This document shows positions 28,755 to 42,010 of a DNA stretch of 64,000 bases, in pieces. This DNA is from Albimonas marina (GTDB lineage: Bacteria; Pseudomonadota; Alphaproteobacteria; Rhodobacterales; Rhodobacteraceae), in NCBI RefSeq assembly GCF_029223255.1, contig NZ_JARHUC010000010.1, positions 124,001 to 188,000 of the forward strand, in the 5' to 3' direction. Made by a program: the position numbers and the translations under genes. The notes under the pieces were generated by a model. The model saw only the letters and a list, made by a program, of their open reading frames with translations, had not been told where the DNA came from and made no database searches. Position 1 is the stretch's first letter, and each line of letters opens with the position of its first letter.

Positions 28755-28783
28755 TTGCCGAAACGTTGTGCAGTGTTCAGATT
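28755..28783 (+). promoter_or_regulatory. Candidate promoter of nasT-nasS
   Basis: TTGCCG (28755-28760), 17-nt spacer, CAGATT (28778-28783), in a locally AT-richer patch between the divergent urtA and nasT genes. A 5' leader of roughly 150 nt would precede nasT; no other feature was recognised in it. Confidence 0.35.
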
Positions 28784-28942
28784 AACGGCAGGTTCGGCGC
28801 GCAAGAGCTGGGCGCCGCAGGGGCCGACAGCCTCTTAAGCAGGCGACGCTGCGGCAGGAGCGCAGCGTCGCGCCCCCTGCGCGGGCTTGCGTCGGGCGTG
28901 CTGCGGCGCAACACTCGCCGCGGACCGAAGGGGAGGCCATCC

Positions 28943-29527
28943 TTGGCCAAGACGCTCAAGATCGCCGTGGTGGAGCGCGACCGGGATCGCGCGCTGATGA
29001 TCGTCGACGGGCTGCGCGACGCGGGCGACCACGAGGTGATCGTGATCGGCGACGACACCGGCCTGTCGCGCCGCCTGTCGGAGATCAATCCCGACGTGGT
29101 GCTGATCGACCTCGAGAACCCGTCGCGCGACGTGCTCGAGGAGCTGGCGCTGGCCTCGGGCCCGATGGAGCGGCCGGTGGCGATGTTCGTCGACCGCTCG
29201 GACGGGGCGCTGACCCAGGCGGCGATCGAGGCGGGCGTCAGCGCCTATATCGTCGACGGGCTTCAGAAGCAGCGGATCAAGCCGATCATCGACGCCGCCG
29301 TGGCGCGCTTCCAGATGTTCGCGCGCGTGCGCTCGGAGCTCGCCGCGACCAAGGCGGCGCTGGCCGAGCGCAAGACCATCGACCGCGCCAAGGGCATCCT
29401 GATGAAGGCGCGCGGCATCTCGGAGGACGAGGCCTACGCGCTGATCCGGCGCGCGGCGATGGACCAGGGGCGCAAGGTGGCCGAGGTGGCGCAGGCGCTG
29501 ATCACGGCGGCGGAGCTTCTGAAATGA
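28943..29527 (+). CDS. nasT: ANTAR-domain antiterminator NasT
   Basis: A 194-residue protein with a pseudo-receiver domain ([21 protein letters not shown]...[18 protein letters not shown]) and a C-terminal ANTAR RNA-binding domain (about 140-190: [31 protein letters not shown]...[16 protein letters not shown]). NasT binds a two-hairpin leader RNA and prevents termination ahead of nitrate-assimilation genes; NasS holds it inactive without nitrate. No ATG fits the conserved start, so TTG at 28943 is chosen, preceded by GGGGAGG (28931-28937). The stop overlaps nasS by 4 nt. Confidence 0.95.
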
Positions 29528-30702
29528 ACCGCGAGGCGATCGAGGTCGGGTTCATCCCGCTGGTCGACTGCGCGCCCCTGGTGGTGGCGCGCGAGATCGG
29601 CTTCGCCGAGGAGGAGGGGCTGGCGCTGGAGCTGCGCAAGGCGCCCTCCTGGTCCGCCCTGCGCGACCGGCTGGCGCTGGGGGCGCTGGACGCGGCGCAC
29701 ATGTTGGCCCCGGTGCCGGTGGCGATGAGCCTCGGCCTCGGCGGCATTCCCGCCCCGCTGGACGCGCTGGCGATGATGTCGATGAACGGCGACGTGATCG
29801 GCGTCTCGATGCCGCTGGCCGAGCGGATGGCGGCGCTGGGGGAGCGGCCGGGCTTCATGGACGCGGCCGCCGTGGGCCGGCGCCTGATCGAGGCGGCGGA
29901 GGGGCGGCTGCGGCTGGGGGTGCCCTTCCCGTTCTCGATGCATGCCGAGCTTCTGTACTACTGGCTGGACGCGCTGGGGCTGAAGGCGCCGCAGGGGCTG
30001 GACGTGCGCACCGTGCCCCCGCCCCAGATGGCCGAGGCGATGGCCGCGGGCGAGATCGACGCCTTCTGCGTGGGCGAGCCCTGGGGCTCGGTCGCCGTCG
30101 AGACCGGGGTGGCGGAGCTGATCCTGCCCGGCTGCGCGATCTGGCGCTTCGCGCCCGAGAAGGTGCTCGCCGTGCGCCGCGGCTGGGCGGAGGAGCAGCC
30201 GGCCAAGGCCGAGCAGCTGATGCGCGCGGTCTGGCGCGCGGGGCGCTGGCTGGCCGATCCCGCGCACCGGCTGGCGGCGAGCGAGCTGCTGGCCCGGCCG
30301 GACTACGTCAACGTCCCCTCGGAGATCATCGAGCGCTCGCTGGCCGGGCGGCTGGTGGTGGCGCCGACGGGGGAGGAGCGGCGCGCGCCCCGCTTCGTCG
30401 AGTTCTTCGACGCCGCCGCCACCTTCCCCTGGCGCAGCCAGGCGGTGTGGATGGCGACCCGGATGGCCGAGCGCAACGGGCTCGACCGGGCCGAGGCCGC
30501 GAAGGCCGCGCGGGCCTGCTTCCGCACCGACCTCTACCGGCGCAACCTCGGCCCCGCGGGGGCCGACCTGCCGGGCGCCTCGGAGAAGCTGGAGGGCGCG
30601 CTGGACCAGCCCACCGCCGTCGCCTCGGCGGCGGGGCGGATGATCCTGGGGCCGGACCTGTTCTTCGACGGCCGGGTCTTCGACCCCTCCGAGGCCGCCT
30701 GA
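29524..30702 (+). CDS. nasS: Nitrate/nitrite sensor NasS (NrtA-like, cytoplasmic)
   Basis: A 392-residue protein of the CmpA/NrtA nitrate-binding family that starts directly with the mature fold ([21 protein letters not shown]), with no signal peptide. It is therefore a cytoplasmic sensor rather than a transporter component. The segments [24 protein letters not shown] and [28 protein letters not shown] match its transported homologue NrtA downstream. Nitrate or nitrite binding releases NasT. ATGA overlap with nasT indicates coupled synthesis at a fixed ratio. Confidence 0.95.
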
Positions 30703-30841
30703 ACGCCGGCGGCCGCTGCACGCCAGCTGAGGCCCGATCTGCACAAGAATCAGGCGTCCGCGGATGGGCGCCCGCGACCTTGGCGCCGGAGCGGGTTTTT
30801 GCACTTGCGTCCTGGCGCGGATTCGGGCTAGGAAAATTTCA

Positions 30842-30887
30842 GCGCAGGGCAATGGAGTCCGGCGCGCCACTCACCCAAAGCACGGGT
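30842..30887 (+). ncRNA. Putative ANTAR (NasT) target leader: two small hairpins
   Basis: Hairpin 1: GCGC-A-GGGC (30842-30850), hexaloop AATGGA (30851-30856), GTCC-G-GCGC (30857-30865). The hexaloop has A at position 1 and G at position 4, the consensus for ANTAR targets, and the stem has a single A/G mismatch. Hairpin 2: ACCC (30873-30876), loop AAAGCAC, GGGT (30884-30887), again A1/G4 but with one extra loop base. They lie immediately upstream of a strong terminator, between nasTS and nrtA. This is how NasT-regulated leaders are built. Confidence 0.65.
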
Positions 30888-30898
30888 AACGCGGGCAA

Positions 30899-30959
30899 GG
30901 CTGCTCGATCGTCTCGGACCTCTCATCGGTCCGGGGTCTCGATCGCGCGGCCTTTTTTT
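30899..30959 (+). terminator. Leader terminator upstream of nrtA (NasT-controlled)
   Basis: A long hairpin with arms containing CGATCG and CGGACC (30905-30920) against GGTCCG and CGATCG (30928-30945), extended by GGC/GCC at the base (30899-30952). It is followed by seven T residues (30953-30959) and then CGTTTTT. It would stop transcription before nrtA unless antiterminated. Confidence 0.75.
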
Positions 30960-31013: not shown

Positions 31014-32390
31014 ATGACCCACGTCAAAGGCGCGGCCGCCCTCCTCGGCGCCGCCTCCCTGATCGCCCTCGCCGCGCCGGCCTTCGCCGAGGTCCACGTG
31101 GTGGAGAAGGACGAGCTGAAGTTCGGCTTCATCAAGCTGACCGACATGGCGCCTCTGGCCATCGCCTACGAGAAGGGCTTCTTCGAGGACGAGGGCCTGT
31201 TCGTGACGCTCGAGCCGCAGGCCAACTGGAAGGTGCTGCTGGACCGCGTGATCGACGGGCAGCTGGACGGCGCCCACATGCTGGCGGGCCAGCCGCTGGC
31301 CGCCACCATCGGCTACGGCACCGAGGCGCACATCATCACGCCCTTCTCGATGGACCTGAACGGCAACGGCATCACCGTGTCGAACGAGGTCTGGGCGGAG
31401 ATGAAGAAGCACATCCCCATGGGCGCCGACGGCAAGCCGGTGCATCCGATCCCGGCCTCGGCGCTGAAGCCGGTGATCGACAAGTACCGGGCCGAGGGCA
31501 AGCCCTTCAACATGGGCATGGTCTTCCCCGTCTCGACCCACAACTACGAGCTGCGCTACTGGCTGGCGGCCGGCGGCGTGAAGCCCGGCTACTACTCCCC
31601 CGAGAACGTGACCGGGCAGATCGACGCCGAGGCGCTGCTGTCGGTGACGCCCCCGCCGCAGATGCCCGCGACGCTCGAGGCCGGGACGATCTACGGCTAC
31701 TGCGTGGGCGAGCCGTGGAACCAGGCGGCGGTCTTCAAGGGCATCGGCGTGCCGGTGATCACCGACTACGAGATCTGGAAGAACAACCCCGAGAAGGTGT
31801 TCGGCATCACTGCGGCCTTCGCCGAGGAGAACCCGCAGACCGCCATCGCCGTGACCAAGGCCCTGATCCGCGCGGCCATGTGGCTGGACGAGAACGACAA
31901 CGCCAACCGCGCCGAGGCGGTGGAGATCCTCTCCCGCCCCGAATACGTGGGCGCCGACGCCGAGGTCATCGCCAACTCGATGACCGGGACCTTCGAGTAC
32001 GAGAAGGGCGACAAGCGCGAGGTGCCCGACTTCAACGTCTTCTTCCGCCACCACGCGACCTATCCCTACTACTCGGACGCGGTCTGGTACCTGACCCAGA
32101 TGCGCCGCTGGGGCCAGATCGCCGAGGCGAAGCCGGACGCCTGGTACGACGAGACGGCGAAGGACGTCTATCGCCCCGACATCTACCTGGCGGCGGCGAA
32201 GTCGCTGATCGACGACGGGCTGGCGAGCGAGGCGGACTTCGACTTCGCCACCGACGGCTACAAGGCCCCGCAGTCGGAGTTCATCGACGGCGTCACCTAC
32301 GACGGCCGCGCGCCCAACGCCTATCTCGAGCAGTTCCCCATCGGCCTGAAGGGCGACCAGAAGGTCGTGGGCTCGGGCGTCGAGGGCTGA
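31014..32390 (+). CDS. nrtA: Nitrate ABC transporter substrate-binding protein
   Basis: A 458-residue periplasmic binding protein of the CmpA/NrtA family with a Sec signal peptide (cleavage after A23-F-A25). It shares blocks with Nas[58 protein letters not shown] and [25 protein letters not shown]. It delivers nitrate (and possibly nitrite) to NrtB/NrtCD. ATG 31014 has GGAGA upstream. A 10-bp hairpin separates it from nrtB. Confidence 0.94.
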
Positions 32391-32438: not shown

Positions 32439-32512
32439 AGGGGCCCCCTTCCCCGCCCCTCCCCCCGAAGTCGCGGCGCGCCCCGCGCCCCATCCTTGAA
32501 AGGCCCTTCAAG

Positions 32513-33592
32513 ATGACCGCGATCCCCGACCAGTTTCCCGACGCAGCGCGCGCCGCGCGCAAGGCCCGCCTGTTCACCCGCATCAACAAGGCGGCGGGGT
32601 GGCTCGACATTCTCGGCCTGTCGTTCCTGACGCCGCTGCTCAAGATCGCCGCCGGCGACGATCCCCGCGCCCAGGGGCGGGAGCTGTGGCGCCTGCTGGG
32701 GGTGCCGGTGCTGGCGATCTGCGCGTTCCTCGCGCTGTGGGCCTGGCTCGCGCCGCAGGTCGAGACCTCGCTGGGCGCGGTGCCGGGGCCGGCGCAGGTC
32801 TGGGCCGAGGCGGTGGAACTGGACGCCGACGCCGCGCGCAAGGCCGCCGACGAGGCCGCCTTCTACGAGCGGCAGGAGGCGCGCAACGCCAAGCTGGAGG
32901 CCGCGGGCAAGACCGAGGCGATCAAGTGGCGCGAATACACCGGCGCGCCCAGCTACTACGACCAGATCTGGACCTCGATCCAGACGGTGTTCTTCGGCTT
33001 CCTGATCGGGGCGCTGATCGCGGTGCCGCTGGGGATCGCCATGGGCCTCTCGCCCTACGCTGCGGCCGGGCTGAACCCGCTGATCCAGGTGTTCAAGCCG
33101 GTCTCGCCGCTGGCCTGGCTGCCGATCGTGACGATGATCGTCTCGGCGGTCTACGTGACCAACGACGGCATGTTCTCGAAGTCGTTCCTGAACTCGGCGA
33201 TCACGGTGACGCTGTGCTCGCTGTGGCCGACGCTGATCAACACCTCGCTGGGCGTCGCCTCGGTCGACAAGGACCTGGTGAACGTGGGGCGGGTGCTGAA
33301 GCTGACCACCTGGACGCGGATCACCAAGCTGATCCTGCCCTCGGCGCTGCCGCTGATCTTCACCGGGCTGCGGCTGTCGCTGGGCGTGGGCTGGATGGTG
33401 CTGATCGCGGCCGAGATGCTGGCGCAGAACCCGGGCCTGGGAAAGTTCGTCTGGGACGAGTTCCAGAACGGGTCCTCCAGCTCGCTCGCCAAGATCATGG
33501 TGGCGGTGTTCACCATCGGGATCATCGGCTTCCTGCTGGACCGGCTGATGTTCGCGATCCAGTCGATGTTCACCTTCTCGACCAACCGCTGA
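32513..33592 (+). CDS. nrtB: Nitrate ABC transporter permease
   Basis: A 359-residue BPD-type permease. The membrane core (about residues 155-355) contains FFGFLIGALIAVPLGIAMGLS, VFKPVSPLAWLPIVTMIVSAVY and the EAA-like LKLTTWTRITKLILPSALPLIFTGLRLSLGVGWMVL. Before it is an unusually long N-terminal part with one hydrophobic helix (VLAICAFLALWAWLA) and a charged stretch (ADAARKAADEAAFYERQEARNAKLEAAGKTEAIKW) likely helical/coiled in the periplasm. Works with NrtA and NrtCD; 10 nt before the ATPase gene. Confidence 0.93.
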   Translation: MTAIPDQFPDAARAARKARLFTRINKAAGWLDILGLSFLTPLLKIAAGDDPRAQGRELWRLLGVPVLAICAFLALWAWLAPQVETSLGAVPGPAQVWAEAVELDADAARKAADEAAFYERQEARNAKLEAAGKTEAIKWREYTGAPSYYDQIWTSIQTVFFGFLIGALIAVPLGIAMGLSPYAAAGLNPLIQVFKPVSPLAWLPIVTMIVSAVYVTNDGMFSKSFLNSAITVTLCSLWPTLINTSLGVASVDKDLVNVGRVLKLTTWTRITKLILPSALPLIFTGLRLSLGVGWMVLIAAEMLAQNPGLGKFVWDEFQNGSSSSLAKIMVAVFTIGIIGFLLDRLMFAIQSMFTFSTNR

Positions 33593-33602
33593 GGAGGCGA
33601 CG

Positions 33603-35291
33603 ATGACCCCCATTCTGGAATTCAAGGGCGTCTCCAAGGGCTTCGGCGAAGGGCTGGGCCGCGAGGAGATCCTGCGCAACATCACGCTGACGGTCCGCGA
33701 CGGGGAGTTCCTGGCGATCCTGGGCTTCTCGGGGACCGGCAAGTCGACGCTGATCAACCTGATGGCCGGGCTGATCGCGCCCGACCGCGGCGAGGTCCTG
33801 TTCCGCGGCAAGCCCGTGCAGGGGCCGGGGCCGGAGCGGGGGCTGGTGTTCCAGTCCTACTCGCTGATGCCGTGGCTGACGGTGAAGGGCAACGTGATGC
33901 TGGCGGTCGACGCCGTGCATCGCCGCCTGCCCAAGGCCGAGCGGCAGGCGCTGGCGGCGACCTACATCGGGATGGTCGGCCTGGCCCACGCCGCCGACCG
34001 GCGTCCGGCGGAGCTGTCGGGCGGCATGCGCCAGCGCGTCTCGGTCGCCCGGGCGCTCGCCATGCGCCCCGAGGTGCTGTTGATGGACGAGCCGCTGTCG
34101 GCGCTGGACGCGCTGACGCGGGCCAACCTCGCCGACGAGATCGAGCGCATCTCCCAGGTCGAGAAGAAGACGGTGGTGCTGATCACCAACGACGTGGACG
34201 AGGCGATCCTGCTGGCCGACCGGATCGTGTGCCTGAACCCCGACGGGACCCTGGGCGCGCAGTACGAGGTCGCCCTGCCCCGCCCGCGGGAGCGGGCCGC
34301 GATGAACCATGACGCGGCCTTCAAGGCCCTGCGCGGGCGGATCACCCAGCACCTGATGGACGTGGGCATCGACGCGAAGTCGGCCGAGACCCGCCGCCTG
34401 CCCGACGTGATCCCGCTGCACGCCCTGCCCACGGCCTACGCGAAGGCGGCGGAGGCGACCTCGGACGAGCGCTACCTGCAGTACTCGCAGCTCCACAAGA
34501 TCTACCCCACGCCGAAGGGGCCGCTGACGGTGGTCGAGGATTTCGACCTGACCCTGAAGAAGGGCGAGTTCGTGAGCCTCATCGGCCACTCGGGCTGCGG
34601 CAAGTCCACGGTGCTGACGATGACCGCGGGGCTCAACGACATCTCGCAGGGGGCCATCGTGCTCGACGGCCGCCATGTCGAGGGGGCGGACCCCGAGCGC
34701 GCGGTGGTGTTCCAGAGCCCGAGCCTGTTCCCCTGGCTGACCGCCAAGCAGAACGTCGCCGTGGGCGTGGACCGGGTTTATCCCAAGGCCACCCAGGCGG
34801 AGCGGCAGGAGGTGGTGGAGCACTACCTCGAGCGGGTGGGCCTGGCCGACGCGATGGACAAGCCCGCCTCGGAGATGTCGAACGGCATGCGCCAGCGGGT
34901 GGGCATCGCGCGGGCCTTCGCGCTGAGCCCGAAGCTGCTGCTGCTCGACGAGCCCTTCGGGATGCTCGACAGCCTGACCCGCTGGGAGCTTCAGGAAGTG
35001 CTGATGGAGGTGTGGTCGCGCACCCGCGTCACCGCCGTCTGCGTCACCCATGACGTGGACGAGGCGATCCTGCTGGCCGACCGCGTGGTGATGATGACCA
35101 ACGGTCCCCACGCCACCATCGGCAAGATCATGGACGTGAACCTGCCCCGCCCCCGCACCCGCAAGGCGCTGCTGGAGCACCCCGACTACTACGCCTATCG
35201 CGAGGAGGTCCTGGGCTTCCTCGAGGACTACGAGCATGGCCGCACGCCGGCCGCCCCCACCTCGAAGACCGCGAAGAAGGAGGCCGCGTGA
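33603..35291 (+). CDS. Nitrate ABC transporter, tandem-ATPase subunit (NrtC-NrtD fusion)
   Basis: A 562-residue polypeptide with two complete ABC domains. Domain 1: Walker A from G41 (GFSGTGKST), signature LSGGMRQRVSVARAL, Walker B VLLMDEPLSALDA. Domain 2: Walker A from about G328 (GHSGCGKST), signature MSNGMRQRVGIARAF, Walker B LLLLDEPFGMLDS. Most nitrate transporters use separate NrtC and NrtD, and NrtC carries a binding-protein-like tail; here that tail is missing and the two ATPases are joined by a ~45-residue linker. Domain 2's signature has SNG instead of SGG. Overlaps nirB by 4 nt. Confidence 0.9.
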   Translation: MTPILEFKGVSKGFGEGLGREEILRNITLTVRDGEFLAILGFSGTGKSTLINLMAGLIAPDRGEVLFRGKPVQGPGPERGLVFQSYSLMPWLTVKGNVMLAVDAVHRRLPKAERQALAATYIGMVGLAHAADRRPAELSGGMRQRVSVARALAMRPEVLLMDEPLSALDALTRANLADEIERISQVEKKTVVLITNDVDEAILLADRIVCLNPDGTLGAQYEVALPRPRERAAMNHDAAFKALRGRITQHLMDVGIDAKSAETRRLPDVIPLHALPTAYAKAAEATSDERYLQYSQLHKIYPTPKGPLTVVEDFDLTLKKGEFVSLIGHSGCGKSTVLTMTAGLNDISQGAIVLDGRHVEGADPERAVVFQSPSLFPWLTAKQNVAVGVDRVYPKATQAERQEVVEHYLERVGLADAMDKPASEMSNGMRQRVGIARAFALSPKLLLLDEPFGMLDSLTRWELQEVLMEVWSRTRVTAVCVTHDVDEAILLADRVVMMTNGPHATIGKIMDVNLPRPRTRKALLEHPDYYAYREEVLGFLEDYEHGRTPAAPTSKTAKKEAA

Positions 35292-37774
35292 TGGATGGCG
35301 CGATGGAGCACGCCCCCGACGCGCTCGCCGTGGGCGAGCGCGCGAAGCCCCGGCTGGTGGTGATCGGGGCCGGCATGGCCTCGGGCCGGGCGCTGGAGGA
35401 GCTGTTCGCCCTCTCGCCCGGCGGCTGGGAGGTGACGCTGTTCGGCGCGGAGCCGCGGGGCAACTACAACCGCCTGATGCTCTCGCCCGTGCTGGCCGGC
35501 GAGAAGACCTGGGAGGAGATCGTCACCCATGACGACGCCTGGTACGCCGACAACCGCGTGACCTGCCGCTTCGGCGAGGCGGTGACCGGCATCGACCGGG
35601 CGCGCAAGGTGGTGATCTCGGCCCGGGGCGAGACGCCCTACGACAAGCTGATCGTGGCCACCGGCTCGCAGCCCTTCATCATCCCGGTGCCGGGCAAGGA
35701 CCTGCCCGGGGTGCTGACCTTCCGCGACCTCGACGACGTGACCGCCATGCGCGCGGCCGCGGCGACGCCCGGCGCGAAGGCGGTGGTGATCGGCGGCGGC
35801 CTGCTGGGGCTCGAGGCCGCGGCGGGGCTGCAGGTGCAGGGGATGGAGGTGACGGTGCTGCACCTGATGCCCCACCTGATGGAGCGTCAGCTCGACCCCG
35901 CCGCCGCCTACCTCCTCCAGAAGGAGCTGGAGGGGCGCGGGATCAGGGTGATGTGCAAGGCCGACACGGCGGAGATCCTCGGGTCCGACCGCGTCGAGGG
36001 CGTGCGCCTGAAGGACGGGACCGAGATCGCGGCCGACATCGTGGTGATGGCCGTGGGCATCCGTCCGGAGACGGCGCTGGCCAAGGCCGCGGGCCTCGCG
36101 GTCGGGCGGGGCGTGCACGTGGACGACCAGATGGTGACGTCCGATCCCGACATCCTCGCGGTCGGGGAGTGCGTGGAGCATGACGGGGCGGTCTACGGGC
36201 TGGTCGCGCCGCTCTACGAGATGGGCAAGGTGCTGGCCCGCACGCTGGCGGGGGAGGCCGCGGCCTACAAGGGCTCGGTCATGTCCACGAAGCTGAAGGT
36301 GACGGGGGTCGACCTGTTCTCCGCCGGGGATTTCGCCGAGGGCGAGGACCGCGACGAGATCGTGTTCCGCGACCCCTCCCGCGGGGTCTACAAGCGCCTG
36401 GTGCTGCGCGAGAACCGCATCATCGGCGCGGTGATGTACGGCGAGACCGGCGACGGGAACTGGTATTTCGGCCTGCTCAAGGACCGCGCCGACGTCTCGG
36501 AGATGCGCGACACGCTCGTCTTCGGCGCCGCCTTCCAGGGAGGGTCCCGGCTGGACCCTATGGCGGCCGTTGCAGCCTTGCCGGATGATGCGGAGATCTG
36601 CGGCTGCAACGGCGTGTGCAAGGGAACCATCGTCTCCGCGATCCGCGAGAAGGGGCTGACCGGCCTCGACGCGGTGAAGGCGCATACCAAGGCGTCGTCC
36701 TCCTGCGGCACCTGCTCGGGCCTCGTCGAGCAGATCCTGCAGGCGACGCTGGGGGGCGCCTACCAGGCGCAGACGGTCAAGCCGATGTGCCCCTGCACCG
36801 AGCTGACCCACATGGACGTCCGCCGCTTGATCAAGAGCCAGCAGCTGAAGTCGATCCCCGCGGTGATGCAGGAGCTGGGGTGGAAGACGTCCTGCGGCTG
36901 CGCCTCCTGCCGGCCGGCGCTGAACTACTACCTGCTCTGCGACTGGCCGGGGGAGTACGAGGACGACTACCAGTCCCGCTTCATCAACGAGCGGGTGCAT
37001 TCCAACATCCAGAAGGACGGCACCTTCAGCGTCGTCCCGCGGATGTGGGGCGGCATCACCAACCCCGCCGAGCTGCGCGCCATCGCGGACGCGGCGGAGA
37101 AGTACAACGTCCCCACGGTGAAGGTCACCGGCGGCCAGCGCATCGACCTGCTGGGCGTGAAGAAGGACGATCTGCCGAAGATCTGGAAGGACCTGAACGC
37201 GGCCGGGCTGGTCTCGGGCCAGGCCTATGCGAAGGGGCTGCGGACCGTGAAGACCTGCGTGGGGACCGACCATTGCCGGTTCGGCACGCAGGACTCGGTG
37301 GGGCTGGGCATCGAGCTGGAGAAGAAGCTCTGGGGCTCGTGGACGCCGCACAAGGTGAAGATGGCGGTCACCGGCTGCCCGCGGAACTGCGCCGAGGCGA
37401 CCTGCAAGGACCTGGGCGTGGTCTGCGTGGACTCGGGCTTCGAGGTCCATATCGGGGGCGCGGCGGGGCTGCACGTGAAGGCGACGGAGCTGCTGTGCAA
37501 GCTGACCTCCGAGGCCGACGTGGTCGAGCACTGCGCGGCGGCCATCCAGCTTTACCGCGAGGAGGCCCAGTACCTGCACCGGATGTACAAGTGGATCGAC
37601 GCCGTCGGCCTCGACCACGTGAAGGCGCGGGTGGTCGAGGACGCCGAGAGCCGCAAGGCGTTGGCCGCGCGCTTCTACCACGCCCAGACCTTCATGCAGC
37701 AGGACCCGTGGAGCGAGCGCGCGAGCGAGGGCAAGGACGCCCACGAGTTCGCCCCCCTCGCCGAGATCGCCTGA
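35288..37774 (+). CDS. nirB: Assimilatory nitrite reductase (NAD(P)H), large subunit
   Basis: An 828-residue cytoplasmic flavo-sirohaem enzyme reducing nitrite to ammonium. Order of domains: FAD-binding VVIGAGMASGRALEEL (~24), NAD(P)-binding VVIGGGLLGLEAAAGLQ (~168), two BFD-like [2Fe-2S] regions with CGCNGVC...CGTC (~438-478) and CPC...CGCASC (~500-541), and the nitrite/sulfite reductase ferredoxin-like and sirohaem domains. The [4Fe-4S]-sirohaem cysteines occur in CVGTDHCRFG (~657) and VTGCPRNCAEATCK (~697). Start ATG overlaps the ATPase stop. No sirohaem synthase gene (cysG) is in the operon. Confidence 0.96.
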   Translation: MMDGAMEHAPDALAVGERAKPRLVVIGAGMASGRALEELFALSPGGWEVTLFGAEPRGNYNRLMLSPVLAGEKTWEEIVTHDDAWYADNRVTCRFGEAVTGIDRARKVVISARGETPYDKLIVATGSQPFIIPVPGKDLPGVLTFRDLDDVTAMRAAAATPGAKAVVIGGGLLGLEAAAGLQVQGMEVTVLHLMPHLMERQLDPAAAYLLQKELEGRGIRVMCKADTAEILGSDRVEGVRLKDGTEIAADIVVMAVGIRPETALAKAAGLAVGRGVHVDDQMVTSDPDILAVGECVEHDGAVYGLVAPLYEMGKVLARTLAGEAAAYKGSVMSTKLKVTGVDLFSAGDFAEGEDRDEIVFRDPSRGVYKRLVLRENRIIGAVMYGETGDGNWYFGLLKDRADVSEMRDTLVFGAAFQGGSRLDPMAAVAALPDDAEICGCNGVCKGTIVSAIREKGLTGLDAVKAHTKASSSCGTCSGLVEQILQATLGGAYQAQTVKPMCPCTELTHMDVRRLIKSQQLKSIPAVMQELGWKTSCGCASCRPALNYYLLCDWPGEYEDDYQSRFINERVHSNIQKDGTFSVVPRMWGGITNPAELRAIADAAEKYNVPTVKVTGGQRIDLLGVKKDDLPKIWKDLNAAGLVSGQAYAKGLRTVKTCVGTDHCRFGTQDSVGLGIELEKKLWGSWTPHKVKMAVTGCPRNCAEATCKDLGVVCVDSGFEVHIGGAAGLHVKATELLCKLTSEADVVEHCAAAIQLYREEAQYLHRMYKWIDAVGLDHVKARVVEDAESRKALAARFYHAQTFMQQDPWSERASEGKDAHEFAPLAEIA

Positions 37775-37787
37775 GGAGGCCCGGACC

Positions 37788-38138
37788 ATGACGGTTTCAA
37801 CGACCGAATGGGTGGACGTCGGCGCGCTGGAGGACATTCCCGTCCGCGGCGCGCGCAAGCTCAAGACCCCGATCGGCTGCGTGGGGGTGTTCCGCACCGC
37901 CGCGAACGAGGTCTTCGCGCTGGTCGACCGCTGCCCCCACAAGGGCGGCCCGCTGTCGGAGGGGATCGTGCACGGCCGCGCCGTGACCTGCCCGCTGCAC
38001 AACTGGGTGATCGCGCTCGACACCGGGCTCGCCCAGGGCGCGGACGAGGGGGCGGTGCCCACGGTGCCGGTGAAGCTGGCCGCCGGGCGGGTGCTGGTGG
38101 ACCGCGGCGCGGTCGCGCTGGCGCAGGCCGCGGAATGA
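37788..38138 (+). CDS. nirD: Nitrite reductase small subunit (Rieske-type)
   Basis: A 116-residue Rieske-fold protein that accompanies NirB. All four [2Fe-2S] ligands are present: C49-P-H51 in DRCPHKGGPL and C68-PL-H71 in TCPLHNWV. The E. coli NirD has lost these ligands, so here a cluster-bearing, electron-transferring version is likely. 13 nt after nirB. Confidence 0.93.
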   Translation: MTVSTTEWVDVGALEDIPVRGARKLKTPIGCVGVFRTAANEVFALVDRCPHKGGPLSEGIVHGRAVTCPLHNWVIALDTGLAQGADEGAVPTVPVKLAAGRVLVDRGAVALAQAAE

Positions 38139-38213: not shown

Positions 38214-38345
38214 CCCCGGCGCCCGGCCCGCGGCTTGCCGCGCGGGCCGGGCGCCGGATGCGCGGCGCGCGAGGGGCCTTTCCGGCCGGCTTGCGCCCCG
38301 CCCTCCCTCCCCGGGGCCGCGGCCCCCCGATCCGAGGTCCGAAGG

Positions 38346-41024
38346 ATGACCGAGATGGCGAGCGATCTGTCCGACGGCGCGGTGCGCACCGCCTGCCCCT
38401 ATTGCGGGGTCGGCTGCGGGGTGCTGGCCACGCCCGACGGCCGCGGCGGCGCAGCGATCGCGGGCGATCCGGCGCATCCGGCGAACTTCGGGCGGCTGTG
38501 CTCGAAGGGCTCGGCGCTCGGCGAGACGCTGTCGCTCGACGACCGGCTGCTGACGCCGCGCATCGGCGGGCGGGAGGCGGGCTGGGACGAGGCGCTGGAG
38601 CTGACGGCGACGAAGTTCCGCGAGGCGGTGGCCGAGCACGGGCCGGATTCGGTCGCGCTCTACGTCTCGGGCCAGCTGCTGACCGAGGACTACTACGTCG
38701 CCAACAAGCTGATGAAGGGCTTCATCGGCTCGGCCAACATCGACACCAACTCGCGCCTGTGCATGGCCTCGGCGGTGGCGGCCTACCGGCGGGCCTTCGG
38801 GACCGACACGGTGCCCACCTGCTACGAGGACCTCGAGCAGGCCGACCTGGTGGTGCTGGTCGGCTCGAACCTCGCGTGGTGCCACCCGGTGATCCACCAG
38901 CGGCTGGCGGCGGCGAAGGCGGCGCGGCCGGGGATGCGGGTGGCGACGCTCGATCCAAGGCGCACGGCGACCTCGGACCTCGCGGACCTGCACCTGGCGC
39001 TGAAGCCGGGCTCGGACGCGGCGCTGTTCAACGCGCTGCTGGCGCGGATCGAGGCGGAGGGCGCGATCGACTGCGAATACGCCGCCGCCCATACAGAGGG
39101 CCTGCCCGCCGCCCTGCGCGCGGCCCGCGACTGGACGCCCGAGCGCACGGCCGAGGCGACGGGCCTGCCGCTGGCCGAGGTGGAGGCGTTCCTGCGCCTG
39201 TGGGTGCGGCGCGAGAAGGTGGTGACGCTCTGGTCCCAGGGCGTGAACCAGTCGAGCTCGGGCGCCGACAAGGGCAACGCGATCATCAACTGCCACCTCG
39301 CCACGGGCCGGATCGGGCGGCCGGGGATGGGGCCGTTCTCGATGACCGGCCAGCCCAACGCGATGGGCGGGCGGGAGGTGGGGGGGCTCGCGAACATGCT
39401 GGCCGCCCACCTCGACCTCGAGGAGCCGGCGCACCGGGCGGCGGTGCAGGGCTTCTGGGCCTCGCCCGCGATGGCCGAGCGGCCGGGGCTGAAGGCGGTG
39501 GACCTGTTCCGCGCCTGCGCCGAGGGGCGGATCAAGGCGCTGTGGATCATGTCGACCAACCCCGTCGTCTCGATGCCCGACGCCGACGCGGTGCGCGCGG
39601 CGATCCGGGCGGTTCCGTTCGTCGCGGTCTCGGAGGTCATCGCCTCGACCGACACGGGGCGGGAGGCGGACGTGCTGTTCCCCGCCGCGGCCTGGGGGGA
39701 GAAGACGGGCACCGTCACCAACTCCGAGCGGCGGATCACCCGGCAGCGGGCCTTCCTGCCGGCGCCGGGGCTGGCGCGGCCGGACTGGAAGATCGTCTGC
39801 GACGTGGCGGCCCGGATGGGCTTCGCCGAGGCCTTCGCCTTCGAGAGCGCCGCCGAGGTGTTCCGCGAACACGCCGCCCTGTCGGCGCTGGCCGGAGAGC
39901 TGGGGCGGGACTTCGACATCTCGGCCCGCGCCGGGATCACGGACGACGCCTATGACGCGATGGCCCCGTTCCAGTGGCCCGCGACGGCGCAGGGCGGCAA
40001 GGCGCGGTTCTTCGCGGACGGGCGGTTCTACACGCCTTCGGGGCGGGCGCGCTTCGTCGCCGTCACGCCGCGGGCCCCGGCCTCGCGCCTGTCGGAGGCG
40101 TTCCCGCTGCGCTTCAACACCGGGCGGGTGCGCGACCACTGGCACACGCTGACGCGCACCGGCAAGTCGGCGCGGCTGAGCCAGCACATCGCCGAGCCCT
40201 ACCTCGAGATCCACCCCGCCGACGCGCGGCGCGCGGGCGTGGGGCCGGCGGACCTCGCCCGCGTCTCGAGCCCGCAGGGGGAGGCGCTGCTGCGGGTGCT
40301 GGTGACGCGCCGGACGCCCGAGGGCGCGGTCTTCGCGCCGATGCACTGGACGGAGGAGCTGTCCTCGGCGGGCCGCGTGGACGCGGTGGTGCGCGCGGAG
40401 GTGGACCCGGTCTCGGGCCAGCCGGAGCTGAAGGGCGCAGCGGTGCGGGTGGAGAAGTTCGCCGCCGCCTGGCACGCCTTCGCGATCTCGGCCGCGCGGC
40501 CCGACTGCTCGGGCGCCGACTACTGGGCGCTGGCCCGAGCGGAGGGCGGCTGGCGGGCGGAACTGGCGGGGACGCAGGCCCCCGCCGACTGGGCGGCGTT
40601 CGCGCGCAGGCTCTTCGGCCTCGCCCCCGGCGCGGGCGAGGTCGCGGCGGTCGAGGATGCGGCCCGCGGGGTCGTGCGCCTCGCGCTCTTCGTCGAGGGG
40701 CGGCTCGCGGGCGCGCTCTTCGCGGCGCGGGAGCCGGTGGAGGTCGCGCGGGGGCATGTCGCGGCGATGCTGGCCGAGGCGGAGGCGCCCCCGGACCTGC
40801 TGGCGGGACGCCCCGGCGCGGACCGGCCGGATCCGGGCGCGATCCTGTGCGCGTGCTTCTCGGTCGGGGTGAACACGATCGCGGCGGCCATCGCCGAGCA
40901 GGGGCTGGCCGACGTCGCCGCCATCGGCGCGGCGCTGGGGGCGGGGACCAACTGCGGCTCCTGCCGACCGGAGATCCAGGCGCTTCTTGACAAGACGATG
41001 GGCGACCGCACCTTGGCGGCATGA
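38346..41024 (+). CDS. nasA: Assimilatory nitrate reductase, catalytic subunit
   Basis: An 892-residue molybdopterin (Mo-bis-MGD) oxidoreductase reducing nitrate to nitrite in the cytoplasm. The N-terminal [4Fe-4S] site is C17-PY-C20-GVG-C24...C52. The Mo-ligand region is NIDTNSRLCMASAV (Cys ~139), followed by SQGVNQSSSGADKGNAIINCHLATG. A C-terminal BFD-like [2Fe-2S] domain (CACFSVGVNTIA...GTNCGSCRPEI, ~837-872) is typical of NasA/NarB that take electrons from NADH or ferredoxin modules. ATG 38346 follows GAGG at 38334-38337; ATG 38355 is also possible. Overlaps the next gene by 4 nt. Confidence 0.95.
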   Translation: MTEMASDLSDGAVRTACPYCGVGCGVLATPDGRGGAAIAGDPAHPANFGRLCSKGSALGETLSLDDRLLTPRIGGREAGWDEALELTATKFREAVAEHGPDSVALYVSGQLLTEDYYVANKLMKGFIGSANIDTNSRLCMASAVAAYRRAFGTDTVPTCYEDLEQADLVVLVGSNLAWCHPVIHQRLAAAKAARPGMRVATLDPRRTATSDLADLHLALKPGSDAALFNALLARIEAEGAIDCEYAAAHTEGLPAALRAARDWTPERTAEATGLPLAEVEAFLRLWVRREKVVTLWSQGVNQSSSGADKGNAIINCHLATGRIGRPGMGPFSMTGQPNAMGGREVGGLANMLAAHLDLEEPAHRAAVQGFWASPAMAERPGLKAVDLFRACAEGRIKALWIMSTNPVVSMPDADAVRAAIRAVPFVAVSEVIASTDTGREADVLFPAAAWGEKTGTVTNSERRITRQRAFLPAPGLARPDWKIVCDVAARMGFAEAFAFESAAEVFREHAALSALAGELGRDFDISARAGITDDAYDAMAPFQWPATAQGGKARFFADGRFYTPSGRARFVAVTPRAPASRLSEAFPLRFNTGRVRDHWHTLTRTGKSARLSQHIAEPYLEIHPADARRAGVGPADLARVSSPQGEALLRVLVTRRTPEGAVFAPMHWTEELSSAGRVDAVVRAEVDPVSGQPELKGAAVRVEKFAAAWHAFAISAARPDCSGADYWALARAEGGWRAELAGTQAPADWAAFARRLFGLAPGAGEVAAVEDAARGVVRLALFVEGRLAGALFAAREPVEVARGHVAAMLAEAEAPPDLLAGRPGADRPDPGAILCACFSVGVNTIAAAIAEQGLADVAAIGAALGAGTNCGSCRPEIQALLDKTMGDRTLAA

Positions 41025-42010
41025 CCTTCTCGCAGCTCGTCCGCACCCTTGGCCGCGGCCCCGGCCGTTCCCGCAACCTCGAACGGGGGGAGGCGGCGGA
41101 GGCGATGCGCCAGATGCTCGCCGGAACCCCGGCGCCGGAGGCGGTCGGGGCGCTGCTGATGCTGATGCGCTATCGCGGCGAGAACGCCGAGGAGATCGCG
41201 GGCTTCTGCGACGGCGCGACCGAGGGGCTGGAGGGCTGGCGCGCGCTGCGCCCGGCCATCGACTGGCCCAGCTACGCCGCGGGCAAGAGCCGGGGGCTGC
41301 CGCTGTTCCTGCTGGCGGCGAAGCTGGTCGCGGGCGCGGGCCTGCCGGTGTTCCTGCACGGCTGGAACTCGGCCGCGCACATGCGCGAGGCCGCGGACCT
41401 GCGCGGGATGCTGGGCCCGCTGGGGATCCCCGTGGTCGAGACGCCCGAGGCCGCGGGCGCGGCGCTGGAGGCGGGCGGCATCTGCTACGCCCCGCTGGAG
41501 GCGATGTCGCCCGAGCTCTACCGCCTGCTGCGGCTGCGCGACGTGCTGGGCCTGCGCTCGGCGGTGAACACGACCCTGCGGGTGATGAACCCGTCTGGGG
41601 CCGCGTGCTCGGTCCAGGGGGTGTTCCACCCGCCCTACCGGCCGCTGCAGGTGGCGGCCTCGATCCTGCGCGAGCAGCCCCGCCAGATGGCGCTGAAGGG
41701 CGGCGGCGGGGAGTTCGAGCGCAACCCGGCGAAGTCGGTGACGCTGGAGGGCGTGGTCGGGGGCGAGCGGATCGAGATCGAGGCCGCGCCGATCATCGAC
41801 GAGACCCGCCGGCTGGCCGACGAGGCGCCCGATCCCGCGAAGCTGCCGGCGCTGTGGACGGGCGAGGCGGAGGACGCGTTCTCCGAGGCGGTGGTTGTCG
41901 CGACCGCCGCCGCGGCGCTGCTCGCCGCCGGCGCCTGCACCGACCTGCCCGCTGCCGAGGCCGAAGCCGCGCGCCTGTGGTCCGAGCGCGGCGCCCTGCG
42001 GGCCGCCTGA
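41021..42010 (+). CDS. TrpD2/YbiB-like phosphoribosyltransferase-fold protein
   Basis: A 329-residue protein of the glycosyl transferase family 3 fold (anthranilate phosphoribosyltransferase superfamily). The N-terminal helical domain contains GEAAEAMRQMLAGTPAPEAVGALLMLMRYRGE, and GVPFHPP-like substrate-loop sequence appears as GVFHPPYRPLQ. The sequence lacks the GTGGD phosphoribosyl-diphosphate motif of TrpD: after DWPSYAAGKSRGLP there is no such glycine loop. This fits the TrpD2 branch, whose E. coli member YbiB binds nucleic acid and lacks TrpD activity. ATGA overlap with nasA makes it the last gene of the nitrate operon. Its role there is unknown. Confidence 0.7.
   Translation: MTFSQLVRTLGRGPGRSRNLERGEAAEAMRQMLAGTPAPEAVGALLMLMRYRGENAEEIAGFCDGATEGLEGWRALRPAIDWPSYAAGKSRGLPLFLLAAKLVAGAGLPVFLHGWNSAAHMREAADLRGMLGPLGIPVVETPEAAGAALEAGGICYAPLEAMSPELYRLLRLRDVLGLRSAVNTTLRVMNPSGAACSVQGVFHPPYRPLQVAASILREQPRQMALKGGGGEFERNPAKSVTLEGVVGGERIEIEAAPIIDETRRLADEAPDPAKLPALWTGEAEDAFSEAVVVATAAAALLAAGACTDLPAAEAEAARLWSERGALRAA

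Follow-up and report, generated by a model that had tools for sequence, protein, structure and literature searches.

How might the intergenic leader behind the nasTS gene pair of Albimonas marina control the nitrate assimilation genes that follow it? We analyzed a window of 64,000 nucleotides, meaning the whole stretch of DNA under study, which lies on contig 2 of a genome of 5.85 Mb. Across 28.8-41.0 kb of the window, nasT, nasS, the leader, nrtA, nrtB, an nrtC-type ATPase gene, nirB, nirD and nasA follow one another on the plus strand. The nasT gene (28940..29527) encodes an ANTAR-domain antiterminator (Pfam ANTAR PF03861, 77.3 bits against a cut-off of 27.3) that is the top ANTAR match of the whole genome. 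Its open reading frame opens at a TTG at 28766, with homology from ~28940, and its product is 83% identical to that of Albimonas pacifica, the closest named relative among the NasT matches listed. Contig 20 (locus L002, 286619-286777) codes for another ANTAR protein, whose N-terminal domain is of the AmiR type. The nasS product (29524..30702; PF13379, E 1.1e-68) is of the nitrate-sensor type (NMT1_2). The genes for an ANTAR protein and an NMT1-like sensor are found together, beside nitrate assimilation genes, the arrangement by which a NasS-NasT pair is recognized.

The leader fills the 311-nt gap from the nasS stop (30702) to the start codon of nrtA (ATG, 31014), which bears out the position between nasTS and nrtA given in the original prediction. 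The first gene 3' of it, nrtA (31014..32390; PF13379, E 4.8e-94), encodes a nitrate ABC transporter binding protein. It is followed by the permease gene nrtB (32489..33592, start approximate; PF00528, E 6.3e-21), an nrtC/D-type ATPase gene (33603..35291; TIGR01184, 592 bits, above cut-off), nirB and nirD for assimilatory nitrite reductase (35288..38138; TIGR02374 above cut-off, Rieske domain PF00355), and a nasA-type assimilatory nitrate reductase gene (38235..41024; PF00384, PF01568 and PF04879, with NF047855 under its cut-off). The nitrate reductase carries a BFD-like [2Fe-2S] domain (PF04324) at its C-terminus. An open reading frame with glycosyl transferase family 3 domains (41021-42010) has a four-base overlap with the nasA stop codon and possibly closes the nitrate operon.

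We observed three small hairpins and an intrinsic terminator within the leader, all on the plus strand. The first hairpin, P1 (30842..30865), is seen in folds and in relatives, where its stem covaries. It reads GCGC-a-GGGC[AATGGA]GTCC-g-GCGC, and its hexaloop (30851-30856) has A at position 1 (A1) and G at position 4 (G4) and is closed by the pair C30850-G30857; the hexaloop and the A.G mismatch in the stem had both been described correctly in the original prediction. The middle hairpin, M (30873..30887), found in folds, is ACCC[AAAGCAC]GGGT, with a heptaloop at 30877-30883 and G4 at 30880. The third, P3 (30892..30907), came from a hexaloop scan and has equivalents in relatives. It is an antiterminator candidate, CGGGC[AAGGCT]GCTCG, whose hexaloop (30897-30902) has A1 and G4 and the closing pair C30896-G30903; an extra A-U pair can close this loop further in the window. 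The terminator (30897..30959), identified by fold and coordinates, consists of a stem at 30897-30954 and a T-tract at 30953-30959, where a long terminator with a T-tract had been claimed. This region folds at -37.8 kcal/mol, compared to a shuffled mean of -19.4 (z -6.3). The P3 loop and the terminator stem share their first base, 30897, so that P3 overlaps the terminator 5' arm. The gap is 7 nt between P1 and M and 4 nt between M and P3, and the P1-P3 linker of 26 nt contains M; from loop to loop the distances, which are canonical, are 26 nt (P1 to M) and 20 nt (M to P3). When the nascent RNA was folded without the terminator 3' arm, P1, M and P3 all formed.

We scanned for pairs of C[A..G..]G hexaloops on stems of 4 bp or more in which the second hexaloop overlaps a terminator, and the whole window gave a single match, P1 plus P3. 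Dinucleotide shuffles of the 311-nt intergenic region (5000) gave 0 matches, as did each of 20 window shuffles. P1 and P3 together show the features of the dual-hexaloop leaders known for ANTAR proteins, namely A1 and G4, a closing C-G pair and an overlap with the terminator. The original prediction had named an AAAGCA-type loop with seven unpaired bases as the second ANTAR loop. The heptaloop AAAGCAC does exist, at 30873-30887, but the role assigned to it did not hold up, given that it has no terminator overlap and that its A1 is unconserved in relatives; AAGGCT at 30897-30902 is the likelier second loop. P3, which the original prediction missed, is, on sequence grounds, likely the antiterminator that competes with the terminator.

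We consider it likely that 30842-30959 is a transcribed leader of the nrtABC-nirBD-nasA operon that works by ANTAR antitermination, and in which M may be a degenerate third ANTAR-type hairpin. By analogy with studied NasT and ANTAR systems, nitrate would be sensed by NasS, and NasT would bind the leader and bring about antitermination. When nitrate is absent, NasS would hold NasT, the terminator at 30897-30954 would fold and transcription would end near 30959. With nitrate present, freed NasT would bind the P1 hexaloop as it emerges and then the P3 hexaloop. Since P3 takes the first bases of the terminator 5' arm, a held P3 would shorten the terminator and RNA polymerase would pass. For M we infer an intermediate role, in which it would offer NasT a further contact and bridge the 26-nt gap between P1 and P3.

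These features resemble those of the nasA leader of Paracoccus denitrificans, where the NasTS genes also lie directly upstream and hairpins are found in the intergenic leader (PMC3795266, PMC5424462, in the parts consulted). There, NasT is reported to bind the nasA leader, and nitrate dissociates the NasS-NasT complex (PMC3795266); hairpin HI is described as required for growth on nitrate (PMC5424462). Binding of NasT to the leader RNA and the need for HI in induction may have their counterparts in the window leader. In contrast to the window, the running text on Paracoccus denitrificans, figure aside, describes two mutated hairpins, HI and HII, and no middle one, and the downstream gene is nasA there and nrtA here. 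The Klebsiella nasF (NasR), Pseudomonas amiE (AmiR) and Enterococcus eut (EutV) leaders share with the window two A1/G4 hexaloops with closing C-G pairs, according to the text of PMC3369931, PMC7496416 and PMC8934654, and in them, too, the second hairpin overlaps the terminator (PMC3369931, PMC3369936). The closing C-G pair is the NasR SELEX consensus reported in PMC7496416, and the second hairpin of ANTAR antiterminators is described as drawing on the 5' base of the terminator (PMC3369931, PMC3369936). Unlike the nasF, amiE and eut leaders as these texts present them, the window leader has a third hairpin between the two. Linker length varies among such leaders; the P1-P3 linker of 26 nt compares with 5-12 nt in the E. 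faecalis eut leaders (PMC3369931) and with 2-25 nt in a curation of actinobacterial ANTAR targets (PMC8164766). In Bradyrhizobium diazoefficiens, NasT is reported to interact with the nosR leader and to permit read-through, much as we propose for the window leader; nosR differs in being a respiratory target, and this comparison concerns NasT action, hairpin layout aside (PMC6759348). We regard the window leader as an ANTAR antitermination leader of the known kind in a three-hairpin form.

The folding energies of the small hairpins are close to those of shuffles, and we therefore used conservation as evidence in place of energy. Alone, P1 gave a fold z of -1.7 (13/200 shuffles as good), the 7-nt loop hairpin M -0.05 (82/200) and P3 -2.1 (6/200); jointly, P1 and M gave -0.94 and all three hairpins -0.5. 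The case for the small hairpins is one of anatomy and conservation, and energy does not prove them. We collected relatives from 106 other genomes of the order with a NasT match <1e-50, from which 80 loci were fetched, and from a second set of 80 named loci that overlaps the first 80. Leaders were cut after nasS from 160 entries, window included; L076 was dropped as it has no nasS match, and 8 of the entries have no NrtA-like gene within 2.5 kb. This resulted in 148 distinct leaders, 117 of which, window included, are of the same type, the gene that follows being an nrtA orthologue (identity >=60%).

A P3 equivalent was found in 115 of the 117 same-type leaders. The two misses are L035, which by eye carries a comparable hairpin whose loop begins with G, and L072, where nrtA is far off. 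A P1-like hairpin was found in 108 of the 115, in 98 of them 38-58 nt upstream of P3; some of the P1 picks at odd spacing (10/108) are probably wrong. Both searches specified A1 and G4, that for P1 also the closing C-G and that for P3 also a limited set of stem letters, so the invariance of these positions is partly built in. Outside the search criteria, loop position 2 of P1 is A in 96 of the 98 leaders, and each of the stem pairs 3-8 occurs as five or six pair types. These stem pairs are paired in 98, 75, 75, 79, 68 and 51 of 98 leaders, counts that are not independent events because the relatives share ancestry.

Covariation was assessed in two alignments. In the first, which comprises the window and 43 of 60 listed leaders thinned by eye (44 rows), 93.3% of cells pair in the three-hairpin structure, compared to 19-48% if the structure is slid by 1-3 columns. 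The covariation score was 0.379 versus 0.189 in shuffled alignments, with 0/500 as high. The second alignment holds 38 leaders and lacks the window, L081, L092, L104, L113 and L134. Its covariation score was 0.354 versus 0.176 shuffled, a test in which M is favored by the omission of the five relatives, as these aligned poorly in the middle part. Pairs changed on both sides were no more frequent in the second alignment than in its shuffles (4 vs 4.1). P3 stems are nearly invariant and consequently contribute little covariation signal.

A covariance search had been proposed along with the original prediction. A leader model trained without the window recovered the window leader at 44.8 bits (E 3e-11), with the next window match at 11.9 bits; no Rfam family matched the window at its gathering score, and the leader had two Rfam matches below it (E 0.22 and 0.51). 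When run over 196 genomes of the order, the model gave matches at E <=1e-4 in 70. All of these belong to the 107 genomes with a NasT match <1e-50, 37 of which have no model match, and 0 of the 89 other genomes matched. The searched genomes supplied at least 24 of the 38 training leaders and all 38 lie behind nasTS, which makes the link to NasT partly circular; the zero matches in the 89 genomes without a strong NasT are not circular. Of 75 model matches, 69 lie within 3.5 kb of a nasT match and six lie elsewhere, in five genomes. We also searched the Albimonas marina genome for further targets and accepted none among 16 R1 matches at E <=10; the second-best, at 19.1 bits, has no T-run in the stretch inspected behind it. 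A class-wide R1 search matched 40 of 289 genomes at E <=0.01, of which just three scored above 40 bits. Twenty of these loci were fetched and 11 inspected, the other nine including the window and G001. T-runs stand behind the R1 match in three of the 11, namely L248, L249 and the NasT-linked L244, and by eye L248 and L249 show no clear P3. Taken with gene context, anatomy and conservation, the co-occurrence with NasT gives good support to the predicted reading as a NasT-responsive ANTAR leader, as far as sequence comparison can speak.

The seven unpaired bases, which the original prediction had flagged as a deviation from six, turned out to be real and recurrent, and to belong to the third, middle hairpin. 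We defined an M-type hairpin as three G-C pairs and one more, with a loop of 5-9, between P1 and P3. It is present in 68 of 98 linkers, compared to a mean of 10.3 and a maximum of 18 in 200 rounds of single-letter shuffling. The exact CCC-7-GGG form occurs in 59 of 115 leaders, and 53 of these 59 have G4 in the loop, against a linker G content of 22.7%. As a control, we took 29 hairpins of equal size from other parts of these leaders, and 5 of them have G at loop position 4. A1 is found in just 33/59, loop positions 1 and 7 are able to pair in 28/59, and the M-to-P3 loop distance is 19-23 in 55/59. For six leaders with two possible registers of M, the register nearest 20 nt from P3 was taken; without these six the counts are 47/53 for G4, 29/53 for A1 and 50/53 for the 19-23 distance. 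We rejected M as a plain third hexaloop in the group of the window, where loop size (seven in the window) and A1 are unconserved. Three chained canonical hexaloops are found in 6/117 same-type leaders versus 11/30 of the other type, in which the next gene is NrtA-like at ~30% identity or none is recognized. In these 11 (L044, L050, L053, L066, L135, L142, L145, L148, L151, L152 and L157) the spacings are 28-30 and 24-28 nt, and the named rows are four Pseudotabrizicola, two Rhodobacter and one Rhodobacterales bin.

Outgroups were represented by 40 of 58 nasT loci found beyond the family. A terminator-overlapping A1/G4 hexaloop with a further A1/G4 loop upstream was found in 17 of the 40. The nearest upstream loop is 18-27 nt away in 13 of these 17, by which spacing M occupies the place of the first hairpin in a compact leader. 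In L195, L197, L198 and L233 the sole upstream loop is 41-55 nt away; L198, which scores 42.2 bits with the model, has by eye a GCCCC[GATGAC]GGGGC hairpin between its two loops. L205, L227, L228, L230 and L234 (5/17, a raw scan count) have a pair of upstream loops, with 18-42 nt from each loop to the next.

The outgroup leaders bear on the reading of the original prediction, in which P1 and M are the two ANTAR hairpins and the terminator stands apart, downstream of them. This would fit the nearest outgroup loops, which lie about at the place of M, as well as the A1 and G4 that M carries in the window and the P1-M gap of 7 nt, inside the 5-12 nt range given for the E. faecalis eut leaders in PMC3369931. 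However, holding M would not block termination because M does not overlap the terminator, M in relatives has no fixed loop size or A1, and P3 has every canonical feature plus the overlap. We regard a P1-M pair as improbable. A harder choice arises within the three-hairpin explanation itself, as M might be a mere spacer hairpin that shortens the P1-P3 linker and makes no contact with NasT. In favor of a spacer are its variable loop size and unkept A1, the 26-nt length of the P1-P3 linker, and the report that a 20-nt extension abolished EutV antitermination in vitro (PMC8934654). A spacer needs neither the G4 kept in 53 of 59 leaders nor the full A1/G4 hexaloop that M forms in some relatives, and we favor M as a degenerate ANTAR contact. 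The pure spacer is nearly as likely, with a chance that falls a little short of even.

Two further explanations leave NasT out of the leader. The terminator could merely end the nasTS transcript, the small hairpins being incidental; it is a good intrinsic terminator that starts 195 nt past the nasS stop, and the shuffle-like energies of the hairpins agree with such a role. Conservation of P1 and P3 with covariation, the absence of scan matches in 5000 shuffles and the occurrence of the same RNA 5' of unlinked siroheme genes speak against it, and make it very improbable. Alternatively, another ANTAR protein could read the leader, for which the genome of Albimonas marina offers the AmiR-like protein of contig 20, with its AmiR_N and ANTAR domains. 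We give this hardly any credence, since the leader lies directly behind nasTS and no genome without a strong NasT, out of 89, has a model match.

The six model matches that are not linked to nasTS (L263-L268) lie directly 5' of siroheme synthase genes (four) or uroporphyrinogen-III methyltransferase genes (two). Siroheme is the cofactor of the NirB nitrite reductase. By eye, P1, P3 and the terminator are visible in all six (for example at 2001-2062 in L263 and 2092-2149 in L266), and M is readily seen in L263 and L264 and weakly in L267. These unlinked leaders are candidates for additional NasT targets. The uroporphyrinogen methyltransferase gene of Albimonas marina (contig 17) has neither a C[A..G..]G hexaloop hairpin nor a T-run in the 1.5 kb upstream. 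A NasT link to a siroheme gene within an operon is already known: in Pseudomonas aeruginosa, NasT is reported to act on nirBD-nasC-cobA, with the siroheme gene inside the nitrate operon (PMC8092218). The gene cobA is placed within the nas cluster of Pseudomonas sp. UW4 (PMC3596284), and cysG inside the nitrate operon of S. meliloti (PMC6616083). In the parts of these sources consulted, we did not find a separate NasT-type leader before an unlinked cysG described.

More tentatively, and with the balance tilted somewhat against it, these leaders could reflect a wider scheme in Rhodobacterales and some other proteobacteria. NasT would there read three loops, two canonical hexaloops and between them a functional contact of six to seven bases with G4 kept, and would either move along the RNA or occupy it as an oligomer. 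Some of these bacteria would also have a further copy of this RNA, through which a siroheme synthase gene unlinked to nasTS is coupled to nitrate assimilation. We found no description of a three-hairpin layout with a conserved middle hairpin in the literature searched (few subscription journals; figures and supplements aside). Published accounts give ANTAR antitermination two hairpins, and the EutV structure study PMC8934654 argues, in the text consulted, that the EutV dimer contacts one hexaloop at a time, visiting the loops in turn, with G4 as the sole base-specific contact. A widespread third loop at canonical spacing, be it a full hexaloop or a degenerate loop of 7 nt, offers a natural test of this stepping model and of the minimal needs of an ANTAR loop. 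Motif searches confined to short linkers could miss or misread three-hairpin leaders.

We also looked for promoters. A consensus scan gave no sigma-70-like promoter, and we make no claim for TTGCGT-17-CTAGGA at 30805-30833, which looks sigma-70-like by eye only. A sigma-54 promoter upstream of P1 was rejected, as 70 of 108 leaders lack the GG-N10-GC core and the closest fit in the window mismatches at 7 of 11 positions. Two relatives depart from the common arrangement. At G041:C5:72952-73868, the leader match lies 272 bases past the nasT match and nasS is not in between. In L054, M is seemingly doubled, with two CGC[GAGGA.]GCG-like loops that have G at position 1, which by eye gives this leader four hairpins.
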